From Phytohabitans rumicis (lineage in GTDB: Bacteria > Actinomycetota > Actinomycetes > Mycobacteriales > Micromonosporaceae): 64,000 nucleotides of DNA. Each line of letters begins with the position of its first letter. Position 1 is the stretch's first letter. This document shows positions 1 to 51,598 of this stretch, piece by piece. The position numbers were made by a program, and so were the translations under genes. The notes beneath the pieces are model-generated. The model saw only the letters and a program-made list of their open reading frames with translations, was not told where the DNA came from and did no database searches. The stretch covers positions 7,643,001-7,707,000 of the forward strand of contig NZ_BLPG01000001.1 in the NCBI RefSeq assembly GCF_011764445.1. Reading direction: 5' to 3'.

Positions 1-1
1 C

Positions 2-643
2 ATGGGCGTCACCGTCAAGGGCATGCTGTTGATGAGCCACATGGTCTCCGCGGCAAAACTTGTGGAACAGGCACGGATCATGCAGAGCTACGGCGCCGAG
101 GCGGTCGTGCTGATGGACTCCGCCGGCGCGTACACGCCGGAGAAGGTCCGCGAAAAGGTCGGCGAACTCGTCGAGAAACTCGACATCGAGGTCGGTTTCC
201 ACGCGCACAACAACCTTGGCATGTCGGTCGTCAACAGCATGGCGGCGGTCCAGGCCGGAGCCACCATTGTGGACGTCACCGCGCGCGGCTTCGGCGCCGG
301 CGCGGGCAACGCGCCGATCGAGCTCGTCGCGGCGAACCTGCACGTGGAGCAGATCGAGACCCGCATCCAGCTCTTCGGGGCGCTCGACGCGGCCGACGTG
401 GCACAGGAGCACTTCGTCAAACACGTACCCACCAACGACAGCGTCACCATCGCCAGCGGGATCGCCGGCGTGTTCTCCGGTTTCGCCGCGCCGGTGCGGC
501 GGGCGAGCGCCCGCTTCGGCGTCGACCCCCGCAAGATCCTGCTGGAGCTCGGCAACCGCCGGGTGGTGGCGGGTCAGGAAGACACCATCATCGAGGTCGC
601 CATGTCGCTCGCCGCCGAGCAGGAGGCGTTGAGCCTCGTCTGA
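2..643 (+). CDS. 4-hydroxy-2-oxovalerate aldolase, 3' part (5' end outside window)
   Basis: HMGL-like TIM-barrel aldolase of the DmpG/MhpE/BphI type, which cleaves 4-hydroxy-2-oxovalerate to pyruvate and acetaldehyde or runs in the aldol direction. The visible 213 residues cover roughly the last two thirds of a family member of about 340 aa. The metal-binding HAHNN is at visible residues 67-71, followed by the glycine-rich GFGAGAGNAPIE strand and the C-terminal communication-type domain. The frame is open to the window edge, so the ATG at position 2 is probably internal. It lies 52 bp before a methyltransferase and a 2-oxopent-4-enoate hydratase on the same strand, so the aldolase and hydratase probably act in sequence on one oxo acid. 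SanM of nikkomycin biosynthesis is a precedent for such an aldolase in a natural-product pathway. Confidence 0.85.
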   Translation: MGVTVKGMLLMSHMVSAAKLVEQARIMQSYGAEAVVLMDSAGAYTPEKVREKVGELVEKLDIEVGFHAHNNLGMSVVNSMAAVQAGATIVDVTARGFGAGAGNAPIELVAANLHVEQIETRIQLFGALDAADVAQEHFVKHVPTNDSVTIASGIAGVFSGFAAPVRRASARFGVDPRKILLELGNRRVVAGQEDTIIEVAMSLAAEQEALSLV

Positions 644-694
644 GCAGCCGTCAGTTTCGCATCAAGTCGTGCTTCAAGTCGTGTAGGAGGAGCA

Positions 695-1681
695 ATGCAA
701 CGCCATTCCTCGCTCGAGAACGCGGCCGACCTGGCCGCGGTCGCCGCGCTGCTGCAGATCGGCGCGGAGATCGGAGTCGACCAACTGCTGGACTCGGGCG
801 GCACGTTCAGCGCCGCGGATCTGGCCAAGGTGGCCGACCTCCCGCAGGCCGGCACCGACGACTACCTGGCCGCGCTGGTCGCCGCGGGACTCGTCGTGGA
901 CACGGAGATCCCGAACAGGTTCCAGGTGGCCGAGGACTACCCGGACTGGCGGTACGCGTCCGGATACGTGTCCTGGAGCCTGAGCGCGAACGGCCCGTTC
1001 CTCGACCACGCGCGGGAGTTCCTGGTCGACCGCGACGCGGCCGCCCGGGCCCATCAGCGGAACGGACGCCGGGTGGCGGTCAGCTCACGGTGGATCGGCG
1101 CGCGGGCGTTCTATCCACCGATCGTCGACCGGGTCGCCGCGGCCGGTGCCCGCCACGTGGCAGACCTCGGCGCCGGCGCCGGCGGGTTGCTCATCAAGCT
1201 CCTGGGGCAGGACCCGGCGCGTACCGGCGTGGCGCTCGACTGCAGCGGCGCCGCGTGTGCCGCGGCGCGGGAGGCCGCCGTCGCCGCGGGCGTGGACGGC
1301 CGGCTCCAGGTCGTCGAGCGCACGGTCGAGTCCCTTGTGGACGATCAGGGACCGGTCGAGGGCGCGAACGTCGTGCTCGCGTGCTTCGTCATGCACGACA
1401 TCGTGGCGGACGCCGCGGTGGCCAAGGGCGTCCTGGGCGCCTGCCGCGACGCGCTCGCGCCCGGCGGGTTCATGGCGGTCGCGGACGCGGTCTCGTACGC
1501 GTCCCAGCCCGCCGAGCGGAAGTTCAGCGCGCTGTTCACCTACCTGCACGCCAGCTTCATGAGCGTGACCCTCCCGACCGAGGGACAGTGGCTGGACACG
1601 TTCCAGGCCGCGGGCTTCTCGAAGACCGAGTACGTGCCGCTCGGCACCCCCGGCGCCCGGCTCTTCGTGGCGGTCAAATAA
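695..1681 (+). CDS. SAM-dependent O-methyltransferase (winged-helix plus Rossmann type)
   Basis: 328 aa. Residues 1-100 look like the winged-helix dimerisation domain of small-molecule O-methyltransferases. The SAM-binding motif VADLGAGAGG is at about residues 155-164, with the acidic residue of strand 2 in GVALDCS. A late CFVMHDI stretch occupies the place of the usual post-II motif. The start is supported by a strong AGGAGG about 5 nt upstream of ATG 695. Its TAA overlaps the ATG of the hydratase by one base, so the two are translationally coupled. The substrate cannot be read from sequence. A hydroxyl on the product or on the hydroxymalonyl unit made by the 12.8-17.2 kb operon is plausible, because no other O-methyltransferase is seen in the cluster. 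Confidence 0.8.
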   Translation: MQRHSSLENAADLAAVAALLQIGAEIGVDQLLDSGGTFSAADLAKVADLPQAGTDDYLAALVAAGLVVDTEIPNRFQVAEDYPDWRYASGYVSWSLSANGPFLDHAREFLVDRDAAARAHQRNGRRVAVSSRWIGARAFYPPIVDRVAAAGARHVADLGAGAGGLLIKLLGQDPARTGVALDCSGAACAAAREAAVAAGVDGRLQVVERTVESLVDDQGPVEGANVVLACFVMHDIVADAAVAKGVLGACRDALAPGGFMAVADAVSYASQPAERKFSALFTYLHASFMSVTLPTEGQWLDTFQAAGFSKTEYVPLGTPGARLFVAVK

Positions 1682-2460
1682 TGACCACCGCGCTGTCCCT
1701 GCACCGCGAGCTCGCGTGGGAACTCTGGACGGCGGCACGGACACTTCAGGCCGTGCCGCCGGTCTCTACCCGGCATCCGGACCTCGACCTGGCCGACGCG
1801 TACGCCATCCAGAGCGAGGTCCGCGAGATGGACCTGGCGTCCGGTGCGGTCCTGGCCGGACTCAAGATCGGGGCGACGAGCGAGGCGATCCAGTCGATGT
1901 TCGGCATCGACCATCCCGACTTCGGCTACCTGACCGACAGAATGGTGCTCGCCGACGGTGCGGACCTCGACCTGAGCCGGTTCATCGCGCCGAAGGTCGA
2001 GGGCGAGATAGCGTTCCGGTTCGCCGAGGACGTCGCCGGCCCGGACGTGACCGCGCACGACGTGCTGGCCGCCACCGCGGAGGTCCTGCCGGCGCTGGAA
2101 GTGCTCGACAGCCGGATCCAGGACTGGCGGATCGGCCTCGTCGACACCGTCGCCGACAACGCCTCGTCGGCGCTGGCCGTGGTCGGCGCCGGCGTCCCGC
2201 CCGGCACCACCGACCTGGCCGCCGCGCGGATGCAGCTGCGCAGCCGCCACGTCGTGCAGGAGGGGCGAGGCTCGGCCGTGCTGGGACATCCGGCCGAGTC
2301 CGTGGCATGCCTTGTCCGCATCCTGTCCGGGTTCGGCACCGGGATCAAGGCCGGGCAGCTCGTGCTCTCCGGCTCCTGGGCCGCGGCCGTGGACCTCGTG
2401 CCGGGTGACACCGTGCGGGCCTCCTTCGGCCCGCTGGGTTCGGTGTCGCTGACCACCTAG
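1681..2460 (+). CDS. 2-oxopent-4-enoate hydratase family protein (MhpD-like)
   Basis: 259 aa of the fumarylacetoacetate-hydrolase-related 2-keto-4-pentenoate hydratase family, which adds or removes water at 2-oxo-4-enoates. Family signatures seen are LKIGATS near residue 60, the acidic metal-ligand run KVEGEIAFRF at about 102-111, ALEVLDSRI, and the C-terminal LSGSW/VPGDTVRASF. The ATG overlaps the methyltransferase TAA by one base. With the upstream aldolase it forms the hydratase-aldolase pair of meta-cleavage pathways. No ring-cleavage dioxygenase is visible and the setting is a biosynthetic cluster, so a biosynthetic role, possibly in reverse, is inferred. The gene converges on the LanB-type operon, and a strong hairpin lies between them. 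Confidence 0.8.
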   Translation: MTTALSLHRELAWELWTAARTLQAVPPVSTRHPDLDLADAYAIQSEVREMDLASGAVLAGLKIGATSEAIQSMFGIDHPDFGYLTDRMVLADGADLDLSRFIAPKVEGEIAFRFAEDVAGPDVTAHDVLAATAEVLPALEVLDSRIQDWRIGLVDTVADNASSALAVVGAGVPPGTTDLAAARMQLRSRHVVQEGRGSAVLGHPAESVACLVRILSGFGTGIKAGQLVLSGSWAAAVDLVPGDTVRASFGPLGSVSLTT

Positions 2461-2616: not shown

Positions 2617-4886
2617 CTAGGTTTGGGTGTCGAAGGCGACCAGGCGCAGTTCCGAGGTGTAGCGGTTGCCGCGGTCGTCGACGAGCCAGGTCTGCGCCGG
2701 CGTGGGGAGCATTTCCGAGATGGTTAGCCGGGCGGACTCGTCGTGGTTCGCCAGGCGGCGGGCCGCCTTGGTGAACAGGTTGACGTAGACCGGGCTGTCG
2801 AAGTCCACGAACAGCGGTCGTGGCTCGGCTGGCGAGGTGACGAAGACGAACCGTGGCAGGCCGTGCTCGGTGCGGAAGCGGCGGGTGCGCAGGAACCGCC
2901 GGGCCTCGTTCTTCTCGGCCGCGAAGGCCAGGTCGCCGGATGCGAACCGCCAGGTTTCCCGGGCCAGGACGAGGCGGCCAACGGTGACCCGGGGGTGTGG
3001 TCGCGTTCGGGCAGGATGCGCCAGCGGTCCATCACCAGCGTGGTCAGCACGTGGGCGAACGCGTCGAGCAGGTCGAACTCGCCCCCGTCGGGCAGCACCG
3101 CGACGAGCCGGGAGTCCCGTGCCTGGACCAGGACGTCGGCGCTGTTGACGGTGCCTGGCCGGCCGGGGTCCGTGGTGACGTCGGTGAGGGCGACCTGGTA
3201 GTCCTCCGGCCGGACCAGGCTGTACCGGATCCGTGTGGACAGGCGGGCCCTGTTCTCCTTGGCCGTCGACGGGATCAGGCGAGGGCGCGGATGGTCGCGG
3301 TCGGTCAGCTCGAACAGTTCGGCGGGCGACGGATGCTGGTTGACGTACAGCGCGGCGCCCAGGGTGTTGATGGCGACGTGCAGTTCGCCGAGGACGAGCT
3401 CGAAATCGCCCCGGCCGATGGCCTCGGTACTCGTCGCGGCGATCATCACGTCCGGGCTGAGGTAACGCGCCGTTGGCCAGCCGCCGCCCGGGGCGGGGAA
3501 CGCCTCGCGGATCGGACCGGCCAGGTCCGACAGGGACCGGTGCACCTGACCGGCGTCCTTGGGCAGGCTCAGCACGCGCTCCCAGCGGGCCCAGAACTCG
3601 CGCTGGAGTTCGGTGGCGTCGGCGACGGCGTCGGAGTGCAGGATCGGCATGCAGGCGAACCAGAACGAGGCGAGGTCGGTCGGACCGGTCTTGTCGTAGA
3701 CGGCCTGGAAACGCTCGCGGATCCGGTCCGCCAGCGCCGAGGTGAGCCAGGTCGCACTGGTGAGCAGGAGATCGAGCGGGGCCAGCGCGGCGATGACGTT
3801 GCTGCCCAGGCGGACCGATGCCGAGCGGCGGGAGTCCGAGTAGGCCAGGCCGCGCCCGGGGGTGGTCGTGTCGCTCTTGTCCCGGGCGGTCGCGTCGGCG
3901 AGCGCCGCGAAGTCGCCTTCCAGCGCGGCCATCGCGGCAGACAGCTCGTCGGGACCGGTCGCCGCCCGGACCCGGGCCCGGCCCCGCTCCAGGCAGTCGA
4001 GCTGGTCCAGTCCGCGCTGCCGGGCCGCGACGTCCTCGACCCGCTCCAACCATGCGCGCAGGTGGCGTTCCGGGTACGCGTCGGCCGGCAGGTCGAGCCG
4101 CCACACGACAAGCCGGCGGCGGACGAGCTCGTCGATCGCGTCGCTGGCGTCGCCGCCCACCTGCCGGCTGATCTCCACGGCCGGGCGGGTGCCGTCGCAG
4201 AGCGCGAGCACGCGGGCCAGCCCCGGGTCCAGGGCGATGGCCGGCCGGCCCGGGAGCGCGGCGCTCGCCCCGTCCACCCGTACGAACGGCACCCGGCGCG
4301 GCGCCACCCAGGGGCGCAGGGCCGGGTCGTCGCCCAGGCGGCGGGCCAGGGCGTCCAGCGCCCAGCTGGCGAAGTACACAGTGGACTCATCGATCAGGCC
4401 CGTGCCGGGGGCGACGGCCGCGCTCGCGATGACCAGGTCGTACCGGCCCCAGCCGACCGGCCCGAAGAACCCGATGGTGTCGTTCTTGACGCAGAACCGT
4501 TGCCAGTAGTGCGCCACCAGGTCCGCGCGCTGCCGCACCTGGCTCGTCCGGTTCTCGGTCGGGCGCCAGTTGAGGAAGGGGCGTACGGCTCGGCCCAGCA
4601 GCGCCGCGTTCTGCCAGGCGACCGCCGTCTGGTACTCCGGCAACGCGGCGACTTCCTGCAGGGTCAGCGCCGCCTTCACCGCGGCCTCCTGATAGGACTC
4701 CTCGAAGGTCCGCCACTCGGCCGCGGACGGCGGCGGGTCGGCGTTGAACCGGTCGGCGGCGAGGGCCAGATCCTCGGCTGCCAGCCGCAGCACGCCGTCG
4801 ACCGGAAAGCCCGGCCCGCGCAGGGCGAACTGGTCCCACAGCCGCCACCGCCCGCCCAGCCGGATCTCGTTGTCCGGGGCGGCCAT
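2617..4886 (-). CDS. LanB-type (lantibiotic dehydratase N-terminal domain) protein 1, with apparent frameshift
   Basis: Paralogue of the protein at 6670-8976, about 755 aa once repaired. Shared blocks are WDQFALRGPGFP (residues 17-28), YWQRFCVKNDTIGFFGPVGWG (about 128-148, cited as a block), RGLAYSDSRR, and the C-terminal EMLPTPAQTW. The fold resembles the glutamyl-tRNA-using N-terminal domain of class I lanthipeptide dehydratases; no SpaB_C elimination domain follows. Related stand-alone proteins (PEARLs) use aminoacyl-tRNA to add an amino acid. The frame breaks at about 2988-2995: residues up to RDHTP are in one frame and RVTVGRLV onward in the next. One extra C in the C-run (coding strand) restores a match to the paralogue, so this is probably a sequencing error. 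It starts 1 nt after the carrier-protein stop (TGAGATG). The substrate is unknown. Confidence 0.7.
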
Positions 4887-4887
4887 C

Positions 4888-5142
4888 TCAGTACGCCCGT
4901 TCGGTCGCCACGACGCTGGCCAGGTCGGCCGGCGACGGGTAGGAGAAGACCAGCGCCACCGGCACCTCGACCCCGATGGCGTCCCGCAGCCGGGCGGTCA
5001 CCTGGAAGGCGGCCAGCGAGTCACCGCCGGCCTCGAAGAAGTCGCTGTCGGCGTCGAGGCTGGCGTTGGACAGCGTCTCGCGGTATGCCTCGGTGATCAG
5101 ATCCGTGAGGTCGACTGGGGCGACGAGCGTGTCGTCGGTCAT
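4888..5142 (-). CDS. free-standing peptidyl/acyl carrier protein
   Basis: 84 aa single carrier domain. The phosphopantetheine site is FFEAGGDSLAAFQ, with Ser in GGDSL. The ATG at 5142 is preferred over a GTG 39 nt upstream because GAAGGGA lies about 7 nt before it. It sits between the free-standing A domain and LanB-type protein 1, with gaps of 35 nt and 1 nt. It is therefore the natural partner loaded by that A domain, and perhaps the platform on which LanB-type proteins or the downstream C-PCP protein act. The partner assignment is inference from gene order. Confidence 0.88.
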   Translation of the reverse strand: MTDDTLVAPVDLTDLITEAYRETLSNASLDADSDFFEAGGDSLAAFQVTARLRDAIGVEVPVALVFSYPSPADLASVVATERAY

Positions 5143-5177
5143 GATCGCGTCCCTTCGGTGGATGGAGGTGTCTGGGC

Positions 5178-6668
5178 TCACCGGTGCACGCCGGCGAGGG
5201 CGAGCCGATCGATCTTTCCGGTTCGGGTCGTGGGAAATCGGTCCAGCCGGTCGAACCGGCGGGGCATCATGTGCGGCGGCAGGATCCGGGCCAGGTGAAA
5301 GCGCAGCGAGGCGTCGGTGACCGCGCCCAGGTCGCCGGTCAGGTGCGCGACCAGGTACGGGCGGGCCTGCCGGTCCGCCGCCGTCGTAACGGCCGCCCCG
5401 GTCACCTCGGGGAGGGACAGCAGGGCGCCCTCGATCTCGCCCGGGTCGACCCGGTACCCCCTGATCTTGATCTGGCGATCACGGCGACCGCGGAACTCCA
5501 GGGTGCCGTCGGGGCGGCGGCGGGCCAGGTCGCCCGTGCGATAGAGGCGTGCGCCGGGCGGGCCGTCCGGGTCGGGGACGAACCGCGCGGCGGTCAGCGC
5601 CGGTGCGTCCCCGTAGCCGCGGGCGACTCCGGGTCCGCCGATGCAGATCTCGCCGTCGGCTCCCGGCGGTACCTCGTTGAGGTCGGCGTCGAGCAGCCGG
5701 ACCGGTACGCCGTCGATGGGCCGGCCGATGATGTCGGCCGCCTCAGGCTCGGCGGGCACCTTGAACCGCGTGGCCGTCATCGTGGCCTCGGTCGGCCCGT
5801 ACTGGTTGACCACGCGGCCGGGGATGAGCGGCCGGCCACCGGCGGCGAGGAAGGGCCGCACCGCCTCACCGGTGGTAGCGACCAGGCGTAGGCCCCGCAA
5901 ATGCTCCGCGGCGCGCGGCTGCCCGGCCAGGAAGCTCAGGTACGACGGGGTCGCGCTCAGCATCGTGTTGATCCGGTACCTGCCGAGGGCGGCGAAGAGC
6001 TCCTCCGGTCGCAGCAGCGTGGCCCGCGGCAGCACGACCAGCGTCCCGCCGGCCACCAGCGGCGCGAAGGTGTCCCGGATCGCCGCGTCGAAGCCGAGCG
6101 GCGCCAACTGCAGCGCGACGGTGTCCGGCCCGAGCCCGTAGTCGCGGGCGATGAAGCGCAGGTACGGGTGCAGCCACCGGTGCTCGATATGGACGGCGTT
6201 CGGCGTGCCGGTGGACCCGGAGGTGTGGCTGACGTAGGCGAGCGACCGGGGCGCCACCGTGTCCGGGAGCGCCGCCTGCGAGCATTCGACGCCGCCGTCG
6301 ATGATGTCGCCGTCGAGCAGGACGGGTGCGGGCAGGCCGAGTCCGGCGAACCGGCCGGCCAGCCCGGGGCTGGTCACCATCGCGTGGGCGCCGCGGGCGA
6401 ACGCCGCGATCCGCCGGTCGGGCAGATCGACGTCCACCGCGAGGAACGCCGCCCCGGTCCGTACGACGGCGGCGATCGCCACGATCGGGTCGAGGCCGCG
6501 TTCCAGCGCGACCACGCACACCCGTTCGGGGCCGACGCCGCGGGCGGCCAGGACCTGGGCCAGTCGTCGTACCCGCTGGCCCAGCTGACGGTACGTCAGG
6601 CAGGCACCGGGCGTGACGACGGCGGGCACGTCGTACTCCGGGAGTTCGTGGACGAATGTGGTGATCAT
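5178..6668 (-). CDS. free-standing NRPS adenylation domain
   Basis: 496 aa and only an A domain. A3 is SHTSGSTGTPNAV, where the usual Lys of PKG is Asn. A4 is LGFDAAIRD, A5 NQYGPTEAT, A7 [10 protein letters not shown]8 FRGRRDRQIKIRGYRVD, and A10 RTGKIDRL carries the catalytic Lys. By hand alignment to GrsA the pocket reads D-A-R-S-A-T-Q-M-T-K, which matches no specificity code I know. The Arg at the 239 position could suit an acidic or ureido side chain. Neighbours are a diaminobutyrate aminotransferase and a carbamoyltransferase, so N-carbamoyl-diaminobutyrate is a plausible substrate; this is inference. The ATG is 2 nt after the stop of LanB-type protein 2. Confidence 0.88.
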   Translation of the reverse strand: MITTFVHELPEYDVPAVVTPGACLTYRQLGQRVRRLAQVLAARGVGPERVCVVALERGLDPIVAIAAVVRTGAAFLAVDVDLPDRRIAAFARGAHAMVTSPGLAGRFAGLGLPAPVLLDGDIIDGGVECSQAALPDTVAPRSLAYVSHTSGSTGTPNAVHIEHRWLHPYLRFIARDYGLGPDTVALQLAPLGFDAAIRDTFAPLVAGGTLVVLPRATLLRPEELFAALGRYRINTMLSATPSYLSFLAGQPRAAEHLRGLRLVATTGEAVRPFLAAGGRPLIPGRVVNQYGPTEATMTATRFKVPAEPEAADIIGRPIDGVPVRLLDADLNEVPPGADGEICIGGPGVARGYGDAPALTAARFVPDPDGPPGARLYRTGDLARRRPDGTLEFRGRRDRQIKIRGYRVDPGEIEGALLSLPEVTGAAVTTAADRQARPYLVAHLTGDLGAVTDASLRFHLARILPPHMMPRRFDRLDRFPTTRTGKIDRLALAGVHR

Positions 6669-6669
6669 G

Positions 6670-8976
6670 TCAGCTCCCGTTCTGGTCCACGGCGACCAAC
6701 CGCAGCTCGGCGCAGTAGCGGGCGCCCCGCTCGTCGGTCAGCCACGTCTGCTGCGGCGTCGGCAGCATCTCGGTGACCGTCAGCGCGGCCGCCGGGTCGG
6801 CGCGGTACAGCCGGCGGGCCGCCTTGGCCAGGATGTTCACGTAAACTGGGCTGTCGAAGTCCACATAGAACGGTCGGGGTTCGGTGGGGGACACGACGAA
6901 CACGAACCGGGGCACGTCGTGTGCGTCCCGCCAGCGGCGGGCCAGCACGAAGCGCCGCGGCTCGGACTTCTCGGCCGCGAAGTCCAGGTCGGCCGCCGCG
7001 AAGCGCCAGGTCTCGCGGCTGACCACCAGCCGGTCGAGGGTGATGCGCGGGGTGTGGTCGCCGACCGGCCGCAGGGCGAAGCGGTTCATCACCTGGTTGG
7101 TCAGCGCGTGGCCGAACACGTCCAGCAGGTCGAAGACGGTGCCGTCGGGCAGCACCGCGACAAGCTCGCCGTCCCGCTCCGCCACGCGGACGTCGGCACC
7201 CATCAGCGTGCGCGGCCGGTCCGGGGCGGCCGTGTAGTCGACCGGCCCGACGAGGTAGTCCTGCTCGCGGATCAGCGCGTGGCGGTTCCGCGTCGACCAC
7301 CGCAGCAGCATGGACTCCTTGGGCAGCATCGGCATCAGCCGCGGACCGGGGTAGTCGACGTCGGTCTCGGCGAACAGCTCGGCGGCGTCGGGATGCTGCA
7401 TGACGAACAGCGACTGGGTCAGCGTGTTCGTGCCCACGTGCATCTCGCCGAGCACCACGTCGACCTCGCCGCGTGCCGCGGCGGCCGCGTCGGAGGCGAC
7501 GAGGAAGACGTCGGGGCTCATGTACCGGGCAAGGCTCCAGCCGCGGCCGGGCTCGTCGAACGCCTCCCGGACCTTGTCGGCGATGTCGGCGCTGGCGCGG
7601 TGCACCCGGCGGGCGCCGGCCGGTGCGGCGATGATGTCCGTCCAGCGTTGCCGCATTCGCTGGCTGATCCGCTCGGCGTCGTCGGCGGCGCCCAGGTACG
7701 GGTTGGGCATGCACCGCATCCACAGCTCGGATAGGTCTACAGTGGATCGCCCGGCGCGCACCTTCTCGTACTCCGCACGGATGCGGTCCTGTGCCACCTC
7801 GGCGAACCGGTGGACCAGCCAACGGGCGGCGGTCAGGCACAGCGACAGCGGGGCCAGGGAGTCCTGGACGGCGTGCCCCACCCGCACGGTCGCGGCGCGC
7901 CGGGAGTCGGAGTAGGCCAGCGCGCGGCACGGTGCGGTCTTCGCGCTCTTGTCCCGCTGCGCCGCCGACCGGGTCAGCTCGATGAACGAGGACTCCATCG
8001 CGGTGAGCGCCGGCACCAGCGCCGCCGGGTCGCGCACGATCGGCCGCAGTCCTTCGCGTGCGCGCTCGAGGACTTCGAGCTTGCCGAGGGCCGCCGCGCG
8101 GAGGTCCGCCTCGCCGATGGCCTCCAGGCGCCGGCGCAGCTCGCGGTCCGGGTGGGCGCTGGTCGGCACCTCGATCCGCCAGACGATGAGGCGTCGCCGC
8201 AGCAGCTCACCCAGGGTCTCCAGCACGGACGACAGCGGCCGGCCGGTCGTCACCGCTATGCGGGCGGGCAGGCGGGTGCCGTCGCAGAGGTCCAGGACCT
8301 GATGGGCGTCAAGGGTGATCGGCACCGGCGGGCAGCCCGGCATGGTGACCTCGCCGCCGGTGACCCGTACGAAGGGCACCCGCCGCGGCGGCAGCCAGCG
8401 CCGCACACCCGGGACCGCCTCGATCGTCCGGGCCAGGGCGTCGATCGCCCAGCTGGAGAAGTACACCTCGGATCCGGCGATGAGGCGGTCGCCGGGTTCG
8501 ACCTCGATGCCTGGGCGGCTCGCGTCGAACCGGCCCCAGCCGACCGGCCCGAAGAAGCCGATGGTGTCGTTCTTCACGCAGAAGCGCTGCCAGTACTGCG
8601 CGACGAGTTCCTCGCGCTGGCGGGGCATGCTGGTCCGCCCCTTCTCCGACGGCTGCCAGGCCAGGAACGGCGCGATGCCGGAACCCAGGACGGTCCGGTT
8701 CTGCCAGGCCACCGCGGCCTGGAAGGCGGATTGGGCCGCGATCTGTTGCAGCGACCGCGCGGTGCGCACGGCCGCCGCCCCGAAGGACGCCGCGAACGCG
8801 TCCCAGTCGGGGCCGGACATGGCCGCACCGCAGCTACCGTCGCCGAACTTGTCGGCGGCCTCGCCCAGCCCCGCCGGGGCGAGGCGGAGCACGCCCTCGG
8901 CCGGGAAGCCGGGGCCCCGCAGGGCGAACTGGCGCCAGAGGCGCCAGCCGCCCGCCAGCATCACCGCGTCAGGCAT
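6670..8976 (-). CDS. LanB-type (lantibiotic dehydratase N-terminal domain) protein 2, intact
   Basis: 768 aa, the intact paralogue of the 2617-4886 protein and colinear with it throughout. Key blocks are WRQFALRGPGFP (residues 14-25), CVKNDTIGFFGPVGWG (133-148), CRALAYSDSRRAATVRVG near 350, VVSRETWRFA, VDFDSPVYVN and EMLPTPQQTW. The family is related to the tRNA-Glu-dependent glutamylation domain of LanB enzymes; the separate elimination domain is absent. ATG 8976 is chosen because GGAAAGGACC lies about 8 nt upstream; longer readings would run deep into the upstream gene. It overlaps the carbamoyltransferase stop by 16 bp. Two divergent copies in one operon suggest two different acceptors or a heterodimer. 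It could instead be a scaffold that has lost catalysis. Confidence 0.72.
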   Translation of the reverse strand: MPDAVMLAGGWRLWRQFALRGPGFPAEGVLRLAPAGLGEAADKFGDGSCGAAMSGPDWDAFAASFGAAAVRTARSLQQIAAQSAFQAAVAWQNRTVLGSGIAPFLAWQPSEKGRTSMPRQREELVAQYWQRFCVKNDTIGFFGPVGWGRFDASRPGIEVEPGDRLIAGSEVYFSSWAIDALARTIEAVPGVRRWLPPRRVPFVRVTGGEVTMPGCPPVPITLDAHQVLDLCDGTRLPARIAVTTGRPLSSVLETLGELLRRRLIVWRIEVPTSAHPDRELRRRLEAIGEADLRAAALGKLEVLERAREGLRPIVRDPAALVPALTAMESSFIELTRSAAQRDKSAKTAPCRALAYSDSRRAATVRVGHAVQDSLAPLSLCLTAARWLVHRFAEVAQDRIRAEYEKVRAGRSTVDLSELWMRCMPNPYLGAADDAERISQRMRQRWTDIIAAPAGARRVHRASADIADKVREAFDEPGRGWSLARYMSPDVFLVASDAAAAARGEVDVVLGEMHVGTNTLTQSLFVMQHPDAAELFAETDVDYPGPRLMPMLPKESMLLRWSTRNRHALIREQDYLVGPVDYTAAPDRPRTLMGADVRVAERDGELVAVLPDGTVFDLLDVFGHALTNQVMNRFALRPVGDHTPRITLDRLVVSRETWRFAAADLDFAAEKSEPRRFVLARRWRDAHDVPRFVFVVSPTEPRPFYVDFDSPVYVNILAKAARRLYRADPAAALTVTEMLPTPQQTWLTDERGARYCAELRLVAVDQNGS

Positions 8977-9911
8977 GGGTCGAGGTCCTTTCCACCAGTA
9001 CGCCCGGAGCACCACTCCAGCACCGATCGTCCACTGTGGAACTTGTTTTCGGCCTGGTCGAACGCGATGCTCGCCGGCCCGTCGAGCACCTCGGCGGTGA
9101 CCTCCTCGCCGCGGTGGGCCGGCAGGTCGTGCATGAACACCGCGGCCGGACACCGGTCCATCACCGCCTGGTTGACCTGGAACGGGGCGAACCTGACCCG
9201 CCAGTCGGCGGTGGGTTTCGTCGTACCGGTGGTCTGCCAGCGCGTGGTGTAGACGACGTCGACCTCCGGCAGGTCGTCCATGTCATGGCGCTGCTCGATC
9301 CGGGCGTCGCTGGCCTTGGCGAGCAGCTCGGCGCGTTCGACGAAGGACGGCGCCACGCCGTAGCCCGGCGGTGTGCGCAGGTGCAGCTCGGTGCCGGGAA
9401 AGCGGGTGAGTCCCAGACACAGCGCGCTCGCGGTGTTGTTTCCCTCGCCGACGTAGAGCACGCGCAGGCCGTCCACCGCGCCGAAGTGCCGGCTCATCGT
9501 GGTGAGGTCGGCGAGCGCCTGGGTCGGGTGCTCGGCCGCGCTCATCGCGTTGACGACACCCATCCGGCTGGAGGTGGCGTACTCGCGCACTTCCTCGCCG
9601 TTCGCGCTGCGTACCACGAGGACGTCCACCATGCGCGACAGCACGGCCGCGGTGTCCCCGGTGGTCTCGCCGGTGTTCAGCTGGAGGTCGTCCGGTCCGT
9701 ACGTGATCAGTCGCGCCCCGAGGCGGAGCGCGCCGGCGGAGAACGCGGTCCGGGTGCGCGTGGAGGTGTTGCGGAACAGCAGTGCCACGATGTCGTCGCG
9801 CAGCGGCTCGGCGTGTCCGCCGGAGGCGTACCAGGCACCACGCCGCACGATCCAGGACAGGTCGTCGTCATCCAGGTCGTCGAGGGAGATGAGGTGGCGG
9901 CGGTTCGGCAT
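8961..9911 (-). CDS. ornithine/aspartate carbamoyltransferase-like enzyme
   Basis: 316 aa. The carbamoyl-phosphate site STRTR is at residues 50-54 and HPTQALAD at 128-135. The ornithine-loop motif HCLP of true OTCases is HDLP here (261-264), followed by the usual RGEEVT, so the amine acceptor is probably not ornithine. It follows the diaminobutyrate aminotransferase by 15 nt. Carbamoylation of 2,4-diaminobutyrate is established in padanamide biosynthesis, and this gene pair suggests the same step. It most likely feeds the free-standing A/PCP pair in the same operon. No other arginine or pyrimidine genes are nearby, which argues against a primary-metabolism role. The ATG at 9911 gives a normal family length. 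Confidence 0.82.
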   Translation of the reverse strand: MPNRRHLISLDDLDDDDLSWIVRRGAWYASGGHAEPLRDDIVALLFRNTSTRTRTAFSAGALRLGARLITYGPDDLQLNTGETTGDTAAVLSRMVDVLVVRSANGEEVREYATSSRMGVVNAMSAAEHPTQALADLTTMSRHFGAVDGLRVLYVGEGNNTASALCLGLTRFPGTELHLRTPPGYGVAPSFVERAELLAKASDARIEQRHDMDDLPEVDVVYTTRWQTTGTTKPTADWRVRFAPFQVNQAVMDRCPAAVFMHDLPAHRGEEVTAEVLDGPASIAFDQAENKFHSGRSVLEWCSGRTGGKDLDPCLTR

Positions 9912-9926
9912 GTGGGGCCTCCTCGG

Positions 9927-11231
9927 CTACCGGGTGCCAGCCAGGTCGGCCCGCAGCAGCGCGTCCCGCAGGACGCTCAGGCCGCGGTCGAGCCGGGCGA
10001 GGTCGATGGTCAGCGGGGGCAGGATCTTGATGACCTCGTCGTGGCGTCCGCACAGTTCCACCACCACGCCGTTGTTGAAGGCGTAGCGCTGCACCTGCTC
10101 GGCGCGTTCGCCGCCGCCGGCCGCGGCGAGGTCGATGCCGAGGGCCATCCCCTTGCCCCGGACGGCGATGGCGGGGTGCTCGGCGGCGAGGTCCCGGCCG
10201 AACTGGGCCAGGCGGTTCGCGGCGGTGGCCAGGCCGGTCTGGAACCCCTCCTGCCGCCACAGGTCGCAGGCGGCCGTGGCGGCGACGAACGCCAGCTGGT
10301 TGCCGCGGAACGTGCCAGTGTGCTCGCCGGGCTGCCACACGTCGAGGCCGTGGCGGAAGAGCACCAGCGACATCGGCAGGCCGTAGCCGCCGATCGCCTT
10401 GGAGACGGTGACCAGGTCGGGCACGATCCCGGCGTGCTCGAAACAGAAGAACCGCCCGGTCCGCCCGCAGCCGGCCTGGATCTCGTCCAGGATGAGCAGG
10501 ATGCCGTACCGCTCGGTGATGGCCCGCAGCCGGCGTAGCCAGTCGGGCGAGGCGGGGTAGACCCCGCCTTCCATCTGCAGCGGCTCGACGATGACCGCGG
10601 CCGGCACGTCGACACCGGACGACGGGTCGGCCAGCAACCGCTCCATCAGCGAGATCGAGTCGAACGTCCCCTGTGGACCGTCCTCATAGGGCAGGAACGT
10701 GACGTCCTGCCCGCTGATCCCGCCGGCGCGACGGGCGCTGCGGCTGCCGGTGACGGCGAGCGAGCCGCGGGACATTCCGTGGTACGCGCCGGTGAACGCG
10801 AAGAGCCCGGTCCGGCCGGTCGCCTTGCGGGCCAGCTTGAGCGCCGCCTCCACGGCGTCGGTGCCGGTCGGGCCGCAGAACTGGACCTTGTAGCTCAGTC
10901 CGCGCGGGCGCAGGACGGTGTCCGCGAACGCGGTCAGGAACTCGCGCTTGGCCTGTGTGTACATGTCCAAGCCGTGCATCAGGCCGTCGTCGTCGAGGTA
11001 GTCGGTCAGCCGGCGCTTGATGAAGTCGTTGTTGTGGCCGAAGTTCAGTGTGCCGGCGCCGCAGAAGAAGTCGATGAATACCCGCGCGTCCTCCGTGTAC
11101 AGCTCGGCGCCCTTGGCCCGGTGGAAGACCGCGGGAAACTTCCGGCAGTACGTGCGGACGTTGGACTCCAGCTCCTCGAAGACCGAGAAGTCGTCGATCA
11201 GCGGTTCGGCCGCGGCCAGTGTGCTCGTCAT
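9927..11231 (-). CDS. diaminobutyrate--2-oxoglutarate aminotransferase (EctB/Dat-like)
   Basis: 434 aa class III PLP aminotransferase. The family features seen are FFCGAGTLNFGHNN (56-69), the cofactor-binding GPTGTDAVEAALKLAR (120-135), DEIQAG (249-254) and the Schiff-base Lys278 in TVSKAIGGYG. The N-terminal sequence and length match EctB-type enzymes, which make L-2,4-diaminobutyrate from aspartate semialdehyde and glutamate. No ectA or ectC is present, so ectoine synthesis is not indicated. ATG 11231 is supported by AGGAGA 4-5 nt upstream. It is the first gene of the six-gene leftward operon. Upstream is a promoter-region motif shared with the 17.2-kb intergenic region. Confidence 0.86.
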   Translation of the reverse strand: MTSTLAAAEPLIDDFSVFEELESNVRTYCRKFPAVFHRAKGAELYTEDARVFIDFFCGAGTLNFGHNNDFIKRRLTDYLDDDGLMHGLDMYTQAKREFLTAFADTVLRPRGLSYKVQFCGPTGTDAVEAALKLARKATGRTGLFAFTGAYHGMSRGSLAVTGSRSARRAGGISGQDVTFLPYEDGPQGTFDSISLMERLLADPSSGVDVPAAVIVEPLQMEGGVYPASPDWLRRLRAITERYGILLILDEIQAGCGRTGRFFCFEHAGIVPDLVTVSKAIGGYGLPMSLVLFRHGLDVWQPGEHTGTFRGNQLAFVAATAACDLWRQEGFQTGLATAANRLAQFGRDLAAEHPAIAVRGKGMALGIDLAAAGGGERAEQVQRYAFNNGVVVELCGRHDEVIKILPPLTIDLARLDRGLSVLRDALLRADLAGTR

Positions 11232-11359: not shown

Positions 11360-11965
11360 TCAGAGCAGTCCGGCGCGCAGCGCGTACGCGACCGCGTGGG
11401 CCCGGTTGCGGAGCCGGAACCGGTGCGTGATGTCGTGCACGACACTGGTCACCGTCCGGGTCGAGTAGCACAGTGCCCGCGCGATCTCGTCGGTTTCCCG
11501 ACCCTCGGCCACCATGGCCAGCACCGCCCGTTCCCGCTCGCTCAGGCCACCCTCCGGTGGGTCCGATCGGCCCGGACCGTCCACATCGAGCAGCCGGTCG
11601 AGCATCTCCGGTGACACGGTGCAGTCACCGGTCGCGGCCGCCAGGACGGCCCGGGTGAGCCGGTCGCCGTTGGCCTCGCGGCGCCAGAGCAGCCCGCGCG
11701 CGCCGGACGCGATCGTCTGCAGCGCCTGCGCCGGCGCCATGTTCGTGGCCAGGACGACGATCGCCGGGCGGTGGTTGCTGGCGCGCGTGGTCCGGACGAT
11801 GTCGAGGATCACGTCGTCGACATCGTCTCCGATGACCACCGTGACCGACGCCGGTTCGTCGCGGGTCACCACGGCGACGTCGGGGGAGCCGCTCAGTGCC
11901 GCGATGGTCCCGGACTCCAATACCGGATCCGGTGCTATCACGTTGACCGTGACCGGGCCGCCCAT
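11360..11965 (-). CDS. LuxR-family regulator with degenerate receiver (1)
   Basis: 201 aa. The C-terminal 60 residues form a LuxR/NarL helix-turn-helix: LSERERAVLAMVAEGRETDE, then IARALCYSTRTVTSVVHDI. The N-terminal 120 residues have the size of a response-regulator receiver, but no clear acidic pocket or phosphoryl Asp can be placed, so it may be phosphorylation-independent. The ATG at 11965 is preferred over a TTG two codons earlier because AAGGA is 8 nt upstream. Its 28-nt spacing from the next LuxR gene suggests a shared transcript. It lies between the two - strand biosynthetic operons and is probably a cluster-specific activator. Confidence 0.75.
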   Translation of the reverse strand: MGGPVTVNVIAPDPVLESGTIAALSGSPDVAVVTRDEPASVTVVIGDDVDDVILDIVRTTRASNHRPAIVVLATNMAPAQALQTIASGARGLLWRREANGDRLTRAVLAAATGDCTVSPEMLDRLLDVDGPGRSDPPEGGLSERERAVLAMVAEGRETDEIARALCYSTRTVTSVVHDITHRFRLRNRAHAVAYALRAGLL

Positions 11966-11993
11966 GGCCAAGGTCCTTCCGCCGGCCGGAGGC

Positions 11994-12620
11994 TCATATG
12001 AGCCCGGTCCGGATCCCTTCGGCGACCGCTTGCGCCCGGTTGTTGACCTGTAGCCGGGCCATGAGGTCGTAGATGACGTTCTTCACGGTGTGCTCCGAAC
12101 AGGACAGGGCGCGGGCGATGGCCGCGTTGCCGTGTCCGTCGGCGATCAGGCTGAGCACCTCGGACTGCCGGGCGGTGAGCGGCTCGATCGGCCGCACCGG
12201 CGGCGCGGAGCGGTTGAGCAACCCGATCAGCGCCTGGTACGGCAGCCGCCCGTCACCGTGCCGCGCCGAACGCAGGGCGGTGCGCAAGCGATTCGGCGTC
12301 ACCTCGGTGGACAGGAGCATGACGCGGACACCGTCCTGCAGCGCGCGTCGCACTCCGGTCGGCGAGAACTCGTCCGCCACGACCATGAGGGGATAGTCGC
12401 CCTGCCGGTACGACTCCGGGCAGGTGTCGACGGCCTCGTCGACGTTGCGACCAGCGGCCACCACGACCGTCGGTGGCGGCGCCTTTTCCGGCCGCGGATC
12501 GATCTGCGCACCGGCCCGGTCGAGCAGGGCGGTCAGGCCGGCGCGGGCGCGCGGGTTTCGGGCGGTCAGGCACGCTCGCGGTCGTTCGTCGACGGACCGC
12601 TGCGGGAGAGTTGTTGTCAC
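11994..12620 (-). CDS. LuxR-family regulator with degenerate receiver (2)
   Basis: 208 aa. The C-terminal LuxR HTH is LTARQSEVLSLIADGHGNAA, then IARALSCSEHTVKNVIYDL. The receiver-like half keeps VVADEFS and LLSTEVTP but no obvious phosphorylation site. The frame stays open to 12728, but that extension runs into the terminator of the upstream operon. GTG 12620 gives a length equal to the neighbouring LuxR protein, with a weak GAAAG 7 nt upstream. That GTG lies inside a 19-bp dyad, which could give translational or autogenous control. The start is uncertain; the family call is firm. Confidence 0.72.
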   Translation of the reverse strand: MTTTLPQRSVDERPRACLTARNPRARAGLTALLDRAGAQIDPRPEKAPPPTVVVAAGRNVDEAVDTCPESYRQGDYPLMVVADEFSPTGVRRALQDGVRVMLLSTEVTPNRLRTALRSARHGDGRLPYQALIGLLNRSAPPVRPIEPLTARQSEVLSLIADGHGNAAIARALSCSEHTVKNVIYDLMARLQVNNRAQAVAEGIRTGLI

Positions 12621-12628
12621 ACAACAAC
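12610..12628. promoter_or_regulatory. dyad over the start of the second LuxR gene
   Basis: GTTGTTGT and ACAACAAC are perfect 8-bp arms around CAC. The dyad covers the likely GTG start, so it could be an autoregulatory operator or an mRNA hairpin masking the start. Confidence 0.4.
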
Positions 12629-12727
12629 TTTCGGCGTTGCCGGTGGTCGGTACATCGGGGCGGACTACCCGCATTTCTGTTGGCGGCCTACCCATTCGCA
12701 AGAATCTGGGTACGGCACCTACGAACA

Positions 12728-12755
12728 AAGGCTCCCCGCACGTGCGGGGAGCCTT
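12728..12755 (-). terminator. terminator of the hydroxymalonyl-ACP operon
   Basis: A perfect 28-bp palindrome; each arm reads AAGGCTCCCCGCAC. On the - strand it is followed by TTTGTTC. It starts 17 nt after the stop at 12773, so it is a textbook intrinsic terminator for the leftward operon. Confidence 0.85.
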
Positions 12756-12772
12756 GGCTACGCGGAGGACTG

Positions 12773-13651
12773 TCAGCTGATCGCGGCCGGCCGCGGGTAC
12801 TGGTGGAAACCGCTGCCGGTCTTGCTACCGCACCGGCCGGCGCGCACCAGCTCCAGCAGCGTGCGGCCGGGCCGGAACCGCGGGTCGCCGGTGCACTCGA
12901 GCAGCACCAGGAGGGTGTCGACGACGGTGTCCAGGCCGATCAGGTCGGCGGTACGCAGCGGGCCCATCGCGTGGCCGAGGCAGTCCTGGAAGACCCGGTC
13001 GACGGTCGCGGCGTCGGCGGTGCCCTGACCGACGACCTCGGCGGCCTCGTTCACGGTGAGCATCAGCACGCGGTTGATCACGAAGCCCGGCCCGTCGGCG
13101 ACCACGATGCCGGTCTTGCCGATCGCGGCGAGCAGGTCGAGGGTGCGCTGGAGGGTCTCCGCGCTGGTCCGCGGCGCCCGCACCACCTCGACGGTGTCCT
13201 TGAGCGGCGCGGGGTTCATGAAGTGCGTCCCGATCACCCGGTCCGGCCGGCGGGTGTTGGCGGCGAGCAGGTCGATCGGGATGGCGGACGTGATCGAGGC
13301 GAGCACCGCCCGCGGTGGGCAGACGGCGTCCAGCTCGCCGAAGATCCGTTCCTTCAGCGGGATGCGTTCCGGCGCGCACTCGATCACGTACCCGGCCCGA
13401 TCCAGTCCGGCGACCCGGTCGGTCCAGCTGATCCGCCCGATCACCCGGTCCACCGGCTCACGGACGCGGTGCGGGGCCAGCAGCCGGGCCTGGCGCAGCC
13501 CGGTACGCAGCCGGGCCAGCGCCCCCGCCACGCCGGCCGCCGATCCGGCCGCCGGGTCGACCACGACCACGTCGTACCCGCCGTCGGCCAGGCACTGGGC
13601 GATGCCGAGCCCCATCGTGCCGGCGCCGACCACTCCGACGATCTCGCTCAT
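12773..13651 (-). CDS. 3-hydroxyacyl-CoA/ACP dehydrogenase (FkbK-like)
   Basis: 292 aa. The N-terminal Rossmann motif GAGTMGLGIAQ is at residues 9-19, and the catalytic-His region is GTHFMNPAPL (about 141-150). The C-terminal dimerisation domain carries GPGFVINRV and the closing GSKTGSGFHQY. In the methoxymalonyl-ACP pathway of FK520 and related compounds, FkbK oxidises the glyceryl-ACP hydroxyl. Here it is the last gene of an operon with FkbH-, FkbI- and FkbJ-like genes, which makes that role more likely than fatty-acid oxidation. ATG 13651 has GAGGA about 5 nt upstream and lies 25 nt after the FkbH-like gene. Confidence 0.85.
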   Translation of the reverse strand: MSEIVGVVGAGTMGLGIAQCLADGGYDVVVVDPAAGSAAGVAGALARLRTGLRQARLLAPHRVREPVDRVIGRISWTDRVAGLDRAGYVIECAPERIPLKERIFGELDAVCPPRAVLASITSAIPIDLLAANTRRPDRVIGTHFMNPAPLKDTVEVVRAPRTSAETLQRTLDLLAAIGKTGIVVADGPGFVINRVLMLTVNEAAEVVGQGTADAATVDRVFQDCLGHAMGPLRTADLIGLDTVVDTLLVLLECTGDPRFRPGRTLLELVRAGRCGSKTGSGFHQYPRPAAIS

Positions 13652-13676
13652 GCCGTCCTCGCTTCGCCGCGCTCGC

Positions 13677-14706
13677 TCATGCCGCCGTCACCCGTACCGG
13701 ATGCGCCCGTGCGGCCGGCGGGCGGGCCGGGTCGACCGCGAGCGTCCACCGCCCGCCGGTGTCGTCCTGGACGGCGAAGCCGGCGAACCGCAGGGTGACC
13801 AGCATCTGCCGGTTCACCGCGGTGGGCACGAACTCCGCCACCGGCTGCCGTCCGGTGGCCAGCGCGCTGTGCACGAGATGGTCCAACAGCGCCGCGCCGG
13901 CGCCGCGGGACAGCACCCGGCAGGACATCAGCAGCAGCCGCAGTACCGTCGTTGCCGGCCGCAGCTCGGTGACCGCCAGGCCGACCGTGCCGTAGGAGCC
14001 GAACCGGTCCCGCAGCCGCGCCACCAGCACCTCGTGCCGCGGCGACGCGCACAGCGCGCGCAGCTCCGCCAGGCTGAACGTGGCGCCGGTGGTGTTCAGC
14101 TGGTGGGTGCGTACGGTCAGCTCGTGCGCGCGGACGAGGTCGGCCGGCCCGGCGCGGCGGACCTCCATCACCAGGTCGAGCGAGGCGAGGAAGTCCACGG
14201 GCGGCCCGGTGTGCCCGGCCTCGGCCGCCCGGCGCTGCTCGTCCACCCGGTAGAGGTGGCGGCGCTGACGGGACTCCTCGCTGACGTACCCGGGGCTGAA
14301 CTCGGGCAGCGCCGGCAGTTCGGCGACGGCGCCGGCCGGGTGGCAGCGCACGGCCGGCAGCGCGGCGGCCACCTCGGCGCGTTCCAGCGGGTCGTTGTCG
14401 ACGAACGCGACCGTGTCCAGGCCGATGCCGACGTCGGCGGCCACCTGGGCGACGGCGGCGGACTTGGCGCCCCACCCGACCTCGATCCGGGTGAACATGT
14501 CGAGCCAGGCCGTGCGCGGCCAGGTGGGCGGTGGCCGCGTCGCGCTCACCCCGACTGGCCACGGCGTGCAGGACGCCGCGCCGGTCCAGGGCGTGCAGCG
14601 TGCGTACGGCGGCGGGGAACGGCACCGGGTCGTCGCCTTCCAGCACGACGCCGTCCCACAGCGTGTCGTCCAGGTCCCAGACCAGGCACTTCACCGTGGT
14701 GGTCAC
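13677..14706 (-). CDS. FkbH-like HAD-superfamily glyceryl-ACP synthase, with apparent frameshift
   Basis: About 342 aa after repair. The N-terminal part has the HAD motif KCLVWDLDDTLWDG right after GTG 14706. After residue 65 the frame changes at about 14500-14505, and the rest continues as MFTRIEVGWGAKS, then FVDNDPLERAEV and a C-terminal acetyltransferase-like region with HQLNTTG. Removing one base in the GCTCGAC stretch joins the halves as HGLADMFTRIEVG. FkbH enzymes take 1,3-bisphosphoglycerate and load glyceryl onto a carrier protein, here presumably the ACP at 15878-16156. The start overlaps the acyl-CoA dehydrogenase stop by GTGA. Confidence 0.8.
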
Positions 14707-15881
14707 CGCAGCCCTCCCGGTACTGTCGCGCGGGCCCGCCGGAGCAGGTGGTCGGCGACATGCAGTTCGGCCACCTGGGCGGAGCCCTCGATGATCTCCA
14801 TGACCTTCGCGTCCCGGTAGAACCGGCCGGCCCGGCTGTCCGGGGCGCAGCCGGCCGCACCGAGGACCTGTACGGCGTCGCCGGCGACCGAGGCGGCGGT
14901 GCGCGCCGCCGCGTACTTCGCCGCGACCGTGGCGGCGACCGCGTCGGGGGCGCCGGCGGCCCGCCACCGGGCGGCCCGGGCGGCGAGCTCCCGCGCGGCG
15001 GCGGTGTCCACCGCGGCCCGACCCAGCAGCGCCCGTACGCTCTGGTGCTCGGCGAGCAGGGTGCCGCCCTGCCGGCGGGTGAGCACGTGTTCGGCCATGT
15101 CCCGCAGGCACGCCTCGGCCATACCCACGCAGCCCCAGCCGACCGTGAACCGGCCGTGGTCCAGCGCGGTGGCCGCCACGTGCGACAGGCCGAACCCGGG
15201 CGGGGCGATCCGGTTCGCCGCCGGGACCCGTACACCGTCGAGCCGGACGTGGGCCAGCTGGGCGGCCCGCAGGCCGAGCTGGCCGGCGACCGGCTGCCGG
15301 GTCACACCGGCCCGGTCGGTCTCGACAAGCACGGCGGTGTGCCGGCCGTCCAGCACCCCGAGCACCAGTAGCACGTCGGCGACCTGGCCGAAGGTCACCC
15401 AGCGCTTGACCCCGGTCAGCTCCAGGGCCGGCTGCTGGCCACCGGCGACGGCGCGGATGCGGGTGTCGACGGCGGCCAGATCGCTGCCCGCGCCGTCCTC
15501 GGTGGCGGCGAAGCCGGCCAGCAGCTCACCGCGGGCGAACGCGGGCAGCCAGCGGACCCGCTGCTCGGCCGTGCCCCACCGCAGCACGGCCGCGGCGACC
15601 ATCGCCTGCACGGTGACCAGCGCGCGCAGCGCGCTGCACACGCCGCCGAGCCGGGCGCACACCTCGCCGAGCTGCGCCGGCGTGGCGCCGAGTCCGCCGT
15701 AGCCGACCGGCAGGTCCGGGGCGAGCAGCCCGGCGGCTGCCGCGGTGTGGCGTACCCCGGTGGGCAGCGCGCCGTCCCGGTCCCAGCCGGCCGCCTCGCC
15801 GCGCGCCGCGTTGGCGAGGTCGGCCCCGAGGGCGTCGAGCTCCGCCGGCTCGGCCGGCGGCGGAGCGAGTACGGCGGTCAC
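14703..15881 (-). CDS. acyl-CoA dehydrogenase-like oxidase (FkbI-like)
   Basis: 392 aa with the acyl-CoA dehydrogenase layout: helical N-terminus to about 115, beta domain with GFAATEDGAGSDL and VKRWVTFG, and the C-terminal helical domain ending YRDAKVMEIIEGSAQVAELH. The Glu in EIIEGSAQ is the region of the catalytic base in many family members. In hydroxymalonyl- and methoxymalonyl-ACP pathways this enzyme finishes oxidation of the glyceryl-ACP aldehyde stage with FkbK. Its GTGA overlap with the FkbH-like gene and 4-bp overlap with the ACP place it in that cassette. Substrate assignment rests on context. Confidence 0.85.
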   Translation of the reverse strand: MTAVLAPPPAEPAELDALGADLANAARGEAAGWDRDGALPTGVRHTAAAAGLLAPDLPVGYGGLGATPAQLGEVCARLGGVCSALRALVTVQAMVAAAVLRWGTAEQRVRWLPAFARGELLAGFAATEDGAGSDLAAVDTRIRAVAGGQQPALELTGVKRWVTFGQVADVLLVLGVLDGRHTAVLVETDRAGVTRQPVAGQLGLRAAQLAHVRLDGVRVPAANRIAPPGFGLSHVAATALDHGRFTVGWGCVGMAEACLRDMAEHVLTRRQGGTLLAEHQSVRALLGRAAVDTAAARELAARAARWRAAGAPDAVAATVAAKYAAARTAASVAGDAVQVLGAAGCAPDSRAGRFYRDAKVMEIIEGSAQVAELHVADHLLRRARATVPGGLR

Positions 15882-16156: not shown

Positions 16157-16157
16157 C

Positions 16158-51536: not shown

Positions 51537-51598
51537 TGAGCACTCCTTTGGCGTTGGGCGTCTCTGGACTGTCGCCGCCTCGGCCCCAGAGTGCGCCG

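Follow-up and report, generated by a model that had tools for sequence, protein, structure and literature searches.

Paired PEARL-like LanB homologues around a free adenylation domain and carrier protein in a nonribosomal peptide cluster of Phytohabitans rumicis: a possible tRNA-dependent extension step

Genes annotated as lantibiotic dehydratases occur in about two thousand clusters encoding nonribosomal peptide synthetases (NRPSs) or polyketide synthases (PKSs), some of them fused to thiolation (T) or thioesterase domains (PMC11212132). For one such protein, SnaE from the threopeptin cluster of Stackebrandtia nassauensis, Yu and van der Donk (2024) reported on the basis of an in-frame deletion that it is needed for the addition of Thr to the NRPS-PKS product, and a mechanism of the kind used by peptide aminoacyl-tRNA ligases (PEARLs) was proposed for it (PMC11212132). 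In the PEARL BhaB7 the ATP site is described as D558, E575, H577, E813, and R815; R34 is placed close to the carboxylate, and the pair Y205/R208 at the 3'-CCA end (PMC11962472, PMC12945691). Here we analyzed a stretch of 64,000 nucleotides of Phytohabitans rumicis (contig NZ_BLPG01000001.1, positions 7,643,001 to 7,707,000; hereafter the window), part of a genome of 10.7 Mb in 3 contigs, in which an operon at 2,617-11,231 encodes two LanB-like proteins (LB1 and LB2) together with a free adenylation (A) domain and a free peptidyl carrier protein (PCP). We tentatively favor the reading that LB1 and LB2 are PEARL-type ligases of an NRPS pathway, the A domain loading the PCP through a side chain and the LBs extending the free alpha-carboxylate with aminoacyl-tRNA; we regard it as quite possible, if still short of probable. 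At the level of sequence it is built on the protein family, the PEARL residues, the paired and conserved cassette, and an A domain with Arg at position 239 (Arg239), while the substrate of LB1 and LB2 is one that we infer. The operon consists of the following parts:

2617..2994, minus strand: C-terminal part of LB2, read in the 2617-4104 frame, with RETW and ELR motifs
2991..4886, minus strand: N-terminal part of LB2, read in the 2724-4886 frame
4888..5142, minus strand: free PCP, 84 aa, with a GGDSL motif; an in-frame GTG lies at 5181
5178..6668, minus strand: free A domain, code DARSATQMT, Arg at position 239
6670..8976, minus strand: LB1, PEARL-type LanB-like protein, intact, 768 aa
8961..9911, minus strand: transcarbamylase, similar to ornithine carbamoyltransferase (OTC-like), with HDLP and TTRWQTTG motifs
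9927..11231, minus strand: diaminobutyrate-2-oxoglutarate transaminase (DabAT), assigned by PF00202 and NCBIfam

In the direction of transcription the order is DabAT, OTC-like enzyme, LB1, A, PCP, and LB2, with 1 nt between LB2 and the PCP as well as between A and LB1, 15 nt between the OTC-like and DabAT genes, and a 16-nt overlap of LB1 with the OTC-like gene. The distance from A to PCP is 35 nt when counted from the inner PCP ATG at 5142 and becomes a 4-nt overlap if the PCP starts at the GTG at 5181. The recomputed coordinates thus agree with the gene order, strand, positions, and gaps of 1-35 nt or overlaps given in the initial annotation, which had missed a frame break near 2,990 that splits LB2 in two. 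Both LB2 pieces align to LB1 and to an intact LB2, meeting near 2,990, and the break is likely, though not proved, to be an assembly error, because frame breaks are suspected by eye in other open reading frames (ORFs) of the cluster as well, FkbH-like at 13.6-15.2 kb and of NRPS type at 17-28 kb. PF04738 was found in LB1 (6e-51) and in the two LB2 pieces (4e-30 and 1e-10), PF00501 in the A domain, PF00550 in the PCP, PF02729 and PF00185 in the OTC-like enzyme, and PF00202 in DabAT, which also passed three NCBIfam cut-offs for diaminobutyrate-2-oxoglutarate transaminase; the NCBIfam search gave zero matches for LB1 or the LB2 pieces. The gaps of the operon, the part of the cluster screened for it, leave no space for a precursor gene.

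As the initial annotation had claimed, both LanB-type proteins lack the SpaB_C elimination domain: LB1 and LB2 carry PF04738 without PF14028, the same holds in five relatives, and PF14028 is absent from the window, its two matches in the genome, at 7.127 and 7.129 Mb, being about 513 kb away. In an alignment of 97 LB sequences (LB matches exceeding 550 residues, drawn from as many as 68 loci), R47 was kept in 92, Y155 in 95, R158 in 97, D516 in 96, E538 in 96, H540 in 95, E784 in 96, and R786 in 96, and both LB2 pieces of the window carry every PEARL residue within their coverage. When compared with the published positions only, the LBs match the BhaB7 motifs and their inner spacing (E-x-H, E-x-R, Y-x-x-R), so that they present the D, E-x-H, and E-x-R of the ATP site, the N-terminal R, and the Y-x-x-R of the 3'-CCA site. 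The last of these is common to the LBs and to the LanB protein of the same genome (full length, PF04738 and PF14028), in which Y155 and R158 are present, R47, D516, E538, H540, and E784 are absent, and the match to R786 sits in a badly aligned tail. LB1 and LB2 are therefore best filed, pending assay, as PEARL-like ligases, an assignment well supported by these residues. Dehydration by the LBs is unlikely because they keep the PEARL ATP-site residues (present in 95-96 of the 97) that the genome's LanB lacks. We give very little weight to a LanB-like scheme in which a PCP-bound Ser or Thr would be glutamylated via glutamyl-tRNA and dehydrated to a dehydroamino acid; membership in PF04738 and tRNA-site residues common with LanB would agree with it, but the nearest PF14028 lies far outside the operon, and in the NRPS product albopeptide it is condensation (C) domains that are described as forming the dehydroamino acids. 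AlbB of albopeptide was considered as a LanB-like precedent and discarded, as the same description has it as an NRPS whose C domains dehydrate.

Searches of the Protein Data Bank (PDB) with LB1 alone gave zero matches and those with a profile of the LB family alone returned no LanB structure, while a mixed profile, with the LanB of the genome among its members, reached MibB (5ehk, 5e-21) and TbtB (6ec7, 1.5e-12). Homologues standing beside a precursor and a SpaB_C gene, an arrangement that would refute the interpretation of the initial annotation, were not seen, the search for SpaB_C being made in the window's own genome only; both Streptomyces plasmids described below do, however, have a LanM gene and a hypothetical protein of 65-71 aa inside the cassette-bearing NRPS cluster (12611-15971 and 12312-15809). 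The full-length class I LanB is located at 7,124,000-7,129,500, with the second PF14028 match about 1.4 kb further on, and this region is a candidate true lanthipeptide or related locus.

Relatives of the operon were collected by several searches. A scan of named genomes yielded five (three Amycolatopsis, Actinophytocola oryzae, and Kutzneria sp. CA-103260), and a plasmid search gave 16 records, three of them at 56-58% identity in two places each; two of these three were analyzed (Streptomyces fungicidicus and Streptomyces sp. CL7) and the S. albogriseolus plasmid was left out. The A. azurea family search (390 genomes) gave matches at 1e-20 in 69 genomes, from which 55 regions were fetched, and a phylum-wide search at 1e-30 gave matches in 2 of 396 genomes, one being the window's own. 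The counts that follow refer to the 26 analyzed loci with both LB1 and LB2, the window included. A pyridoxal-phosphate (PLP) enzyme lies between LB1 and LB2 in 25 loci, the window being the exception; a free A domain is found in 19, also between LB1 and LB2, and a PCP in the same place in 17 by tblastn, to which two annotated Streptomyces carriers are added. In the S. fungicidicus and CL7 plasmids the genes for LB1, A, PLP enzyme, acyl carrier protein (ACP), and LB2 are consecutive. OTC-like genes were present in 18 loci, DabAT in 10 (two of these matches being just 40-49% alike), and SbnB in 7. The recurrence of LB1 and LB2 together in the 26 loci exceeds chance. In a FastTree phylogeny of 67 sequences rooted at the midpoint, the LB1 clade held all 26 LB1 and one single LB (support 1.0) and the LB2 clade all 26 LB2 and one single LB (0.783); because the two form separate clades, the pair is, judged by this tree, old, each member keeping its place.

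The initial annotation had supposed that aminoacyl-tRNA chemistry may act on a PCP-bound amino acid or NRPS peptide, and that this would be a new kind of system. The first part gained from the PEARL-type residues in both proteins and from the free A domain flanked by them in 19 of 26 loci, and it is plausible that the NRPS line here includes a step using tRNA; the second part fell, as the general idea is already established by SnaE, for which a tRNA-dependent extension in such a line is described (PMC11212132). What is new with respect to SnaE is the pair of old paralogues, LB1 and LB2, on the two sides of a conserved cassette, of which no description was found in the open-access literature searched by title or abstract start.

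The A domain offers a possible acceptor. Arg239 was present in all 19 cassette A domains and in 2 of 81 background A domains, the latter being the readable ones out of 85 in a set of 20 NRPS regions that had no LB match. One of the two background cases (DARSSGTVI) is located in a five-domain stretch. The other opens an NRPS with the codes EPRNLVEFV-DHESDIGIT-DFESLAAVY; the N-terminal part of this protein hits the aminoadipate model TIGR03443 but stays below the whole-protein cut-off. The match makes the NRPS ACV-synthetase-like, and in ACV synthetase the first domain activates the delta-carboxyl of aminoadipate. Arg239 also occurs in modules for side-chain-linked Asp and Glu. Its presence in all 19 A domains together with the ACV-synthetase-like background case suggests that the cassette A domain may activate a side-chain carboxyl and leave the alpha-carboxylate free. 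Searches of the open-access literature for the A-domain code strings and Arg239 found nothing, so the meaning given to Arg239 draws on the background just stated for ACV synthetase and for Asp and Glu modules, and on the NRPS matching TIGR03443.

Under the reading that we favor, the free A domain would activate a dicarboxylic, aspartate-like amino acid at its side-chain carboxyl and load it on the free PCP, leaving the alpha-carboxylate free, which is the group that a PEARL needs. LB1 and LB2 would then phosphorylate this carboxylate and condense it with one aminoacyl-tRNA each in an ATP-dependent formation of amides, the thioester end of the PCP-bound residue would enter the NRPS, and DabAT (SbnB in relatives) together with the OTC-like enzyme would supply a carbamoylated diamino acid. 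The side-chain-loading route as such remains doubtful, though it may be correct, and we are similarly hesitant about its consequence that a PCP-tethered residue might grow in two ways, by the NRPS at the thioester end and by two ligases adding two amino acids in order at the alpha-carboxylate. If true, chain reversal would have been solved a second time, independently and with no ureido bond, in a way common to many actinomycetes.

Several points weigh against this reading. Seven SbnB-type, Amycolatopsis-like loci have LB1, PLP enzyme, LB2, and OTC, but neither a free A domain nor a PCP passed the thresholds applied over the 20-22 kb stretch read, so the A-PCP pair is not obligatory. The PLP gene is absent from the window, and the assembly has LB2 with a broken frame. 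The 19 cassette A domains are orthologues, which brings 19 of 19 close to one event, and the 81 background domains include related clusters. Outside the cassette, Arg239 in LB loci (10 of 134) did not differ clearly from the background (2 of 81, p 0.22), and a general rule that LB-bearing NRPS loci provide a free carboxylate (by Arg239, Asp-type code, or ureido C domain) failed (43 of 65 vs. 12 of 20 background loci, p 0.61). The PEARL residues were judged from published positions and motifs only, and AlphaFold2 run on 10 sequences gave a mean predicted local distance difference test (pLDDT) score of 49.4, unusable for fold comparison.

The loci without A and PCP (7 of 26) also lend themselves to a possible, if unlikely, alternative, namely that PEARL-type extension takes place on a carboxylate that is free or made by the NRPS and has nothing to do with the A-PCP pair, such as the carbamoylated diamino acid or a released peptide, as may apply to SnaE, and that A-PCP serves another step. 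SnaE is described as possibly acting on T-bound intermediates or on free compounds (PMC11212132). However, in all 19 loci that have them A and PCP stand between LB1 and LB2, with near-zero gaps in the window, and members of other LB families are found directly beside a lone PCP or within NRPS-sized open frames.

Further LB loci were encountered along the way. At seven loci (L062-L066, L090, L091), LB domains form part of long open frames (1,888-2,027 aa) surrounded by NRPS A domains, with codes including DLLWLGGTF and DVVQVGGVY, and are apparently fused into NRPS proteins. About 9.1-13.7 kb into the region 1281000-1300900 of the window's own genome there is a second, distant LB-like pair (31-35% to LB1), and close to it an NRPS of which one A domain (DPRNCSGQL) also has Arg239; at three loci (L087, L088, L089) an A domain with the code DARSMGHMT is near weak LB matches (28-31%), each in two pieces. 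On a plasmid of Streptomyces sp. NBC_01216 (18.1-27.8 kb), an LB stands beside a methylaspartate mutase, an ACP, an ATP-grasp protein, a C domain, and an AMP-binding protein with Arg239 (EVRHLALLA), similar to the A domain at L061; this NBC_01216 locus is possibly another route from a dicarboxylic amino acid and speaks for the reading that we favor.

The OTC-like enzyme goes together with the making of a diamino acid. A synthase for it (DabAT or SbnB) was found in 17 of the 18 OTC loci vs. 0 of the 8 loci without OTC, within the stretch read. The OTC-like protein misses the ornithine carbamoyltransferase cut-off (257 vs. 281 bits), and its acceptor is probably not ornithine, because HDLP and TTRWQTTG (18 of 18 OTC-like enzymes) replace the HCLP and TDVW-x-SMG of the aligned ornithine enzymes; the company of genes points to 2,4-diaminobutyrate (Dab) or 2,3-diaminopropionate (Dap). 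The PLP enzyme, with the S. fungicidicus protein as query, is nearest in the PDB to serine racemase/threonine deaminase (5cvc, 6e-52; 1ve5, 1e-51), followed at 4e-31 by aspartate racemase 5ybw, and SSGNH is present in 25 of 25; in relatives it probably racemizes or dehydrates an amino acid for the LB step.

With a Dab or Dap synthase in 17 of 26 loci, the LBs could also be imagined to place a protecting aminoacyl group on an amine, carrier-bound or that of a free diamino acid, which a peptidase or amidase would take off again at a later stage. Both Streptomyces cassettes have a peptidase E gene in their vicinity and the Amycolatopsis cassette an ORF resembling an amidase by eye, which would suit this, but PEARLs are reported to activate carboxylates (PMC11962472, PMC12945691) and 9 of the 26 loci have no diamino-acid synthase in the stretch read, which leaves it a slim chance. 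The small carrier beside PEARL-like enzymes likewise recalls the scaffold peptides of PEARLs, so that the PCP might be a protein version of such a scaffold, extended at its own C terminus. The C-terminal tails of 17 PCPs vary in length and sequence around a conserved core; on these variable tails the PCP C terminus was rejected as acceptor, and we consider this scheme exceedingly improbable.

At higher coordinates, two regulators lie next to the operon:

11360..11971, minus strand: regulator 1, LuxR-type by likeness to genes so annotated, beside 11 of the 26 analyzed loci
11994..12728, minus strand: regulator 2, LuxR-type by likeness, beside 8 of the 26 analyzed loci

The cluster upstream contains an SbnB-like gene (58% to an Amycolatopsis protein passing the SbnB cut-off), a PLP-fold gene that we take for SbnA, a TauD-family oxygenase, MbtH, and large NRPSs. 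At 12773-17171 a 3-hydroxyacyl-CoA dehydrogenase, an ORF that is FkbH-like by eye (13677-14549, no match in Pfam), an acyl-CoA dehydrogenase, an ACP, and a ketosynthase III-like protein look like an alkoxy- or hydroxymalonyl-ACP extender set. Inside the NRPS cluster, at L009 16887-18500 and window 1-2460 (no Pfam match for 1681-2460), there are ORFs resembling by eye acetaldehyde dehydrogenase, 4-hydroxy-2-oxovalerate aldolase, and 2-keto-4-pentenoate hydratase, accompanied by a methyltransferase. At 49548-53746 there are two divergent adjoining ORFs of 662 and 666 aa with similar N-termini (FTYRARP and FSFRARP).

Annotators can take such "lantibiotic dehydratases" as the sign of an NRPS step, and a free A domain with Arg239 that lies between two LBs can serve as a marker for finding these pathways. 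The conserved cassette is compact enough (LB1, A, PLP enzyme, PCP, LB2) for reconstitution in vitro, which would make the acceptance of carrier-bound substrates by PEARL-type enzymes directly testable.

Among known systems SnaE, compared by its description, is like the LBs in being LanB-like, in lacking an elimination domain and a precursor peptide, in belonging to an NRPS cluster, and in being a predicted ATP- and aminoacyl-tRNA-dependent amide ligase. The sna pathway differs in that its free carboxylate is reported to be made by a ureido-forming C domain with the motif EHHxxHDG (PMC11212132), whereas the present cassette has a pair of paralogous ligases on either side of a free A domain and a PCP, joined in relatives by a PLP enzyme. 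A scan for EHHxxHDG found none in the window or in the upstream stretches L009 and L026, but the motif does occur close to single LBs of Actinophytocola and of two further genomes, a distribution that fits two designs. The paired cassette indicates that PEARL-type enzymes in NRPS clusters follow more than one design. The PEARLs TglB, AmmB2/B3, and the BhaB enzymes share with the LBs PF04738 alone and, by motif and spacing, the residues of the ATP and 3'-CCA sites, but they work in pathways with a scaffold peptide, for which no gene fits in this operon and in place of which a carrier protein and an A domain are found. Class I LanB proteins (NisB, MibB, TbtB) share the Pfam N-terminal family, from which the LBs depart by having no PF14028 and by keeping the ATP-site residues. 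PacB, the alanyl-tRNA transferase of pacidamycin, extends an NRPS-bound peptide with aminoacyl-tRNA, as proposed here for the LBs, and differs from them in belonging to another protein family and in using an amine as acceptor.

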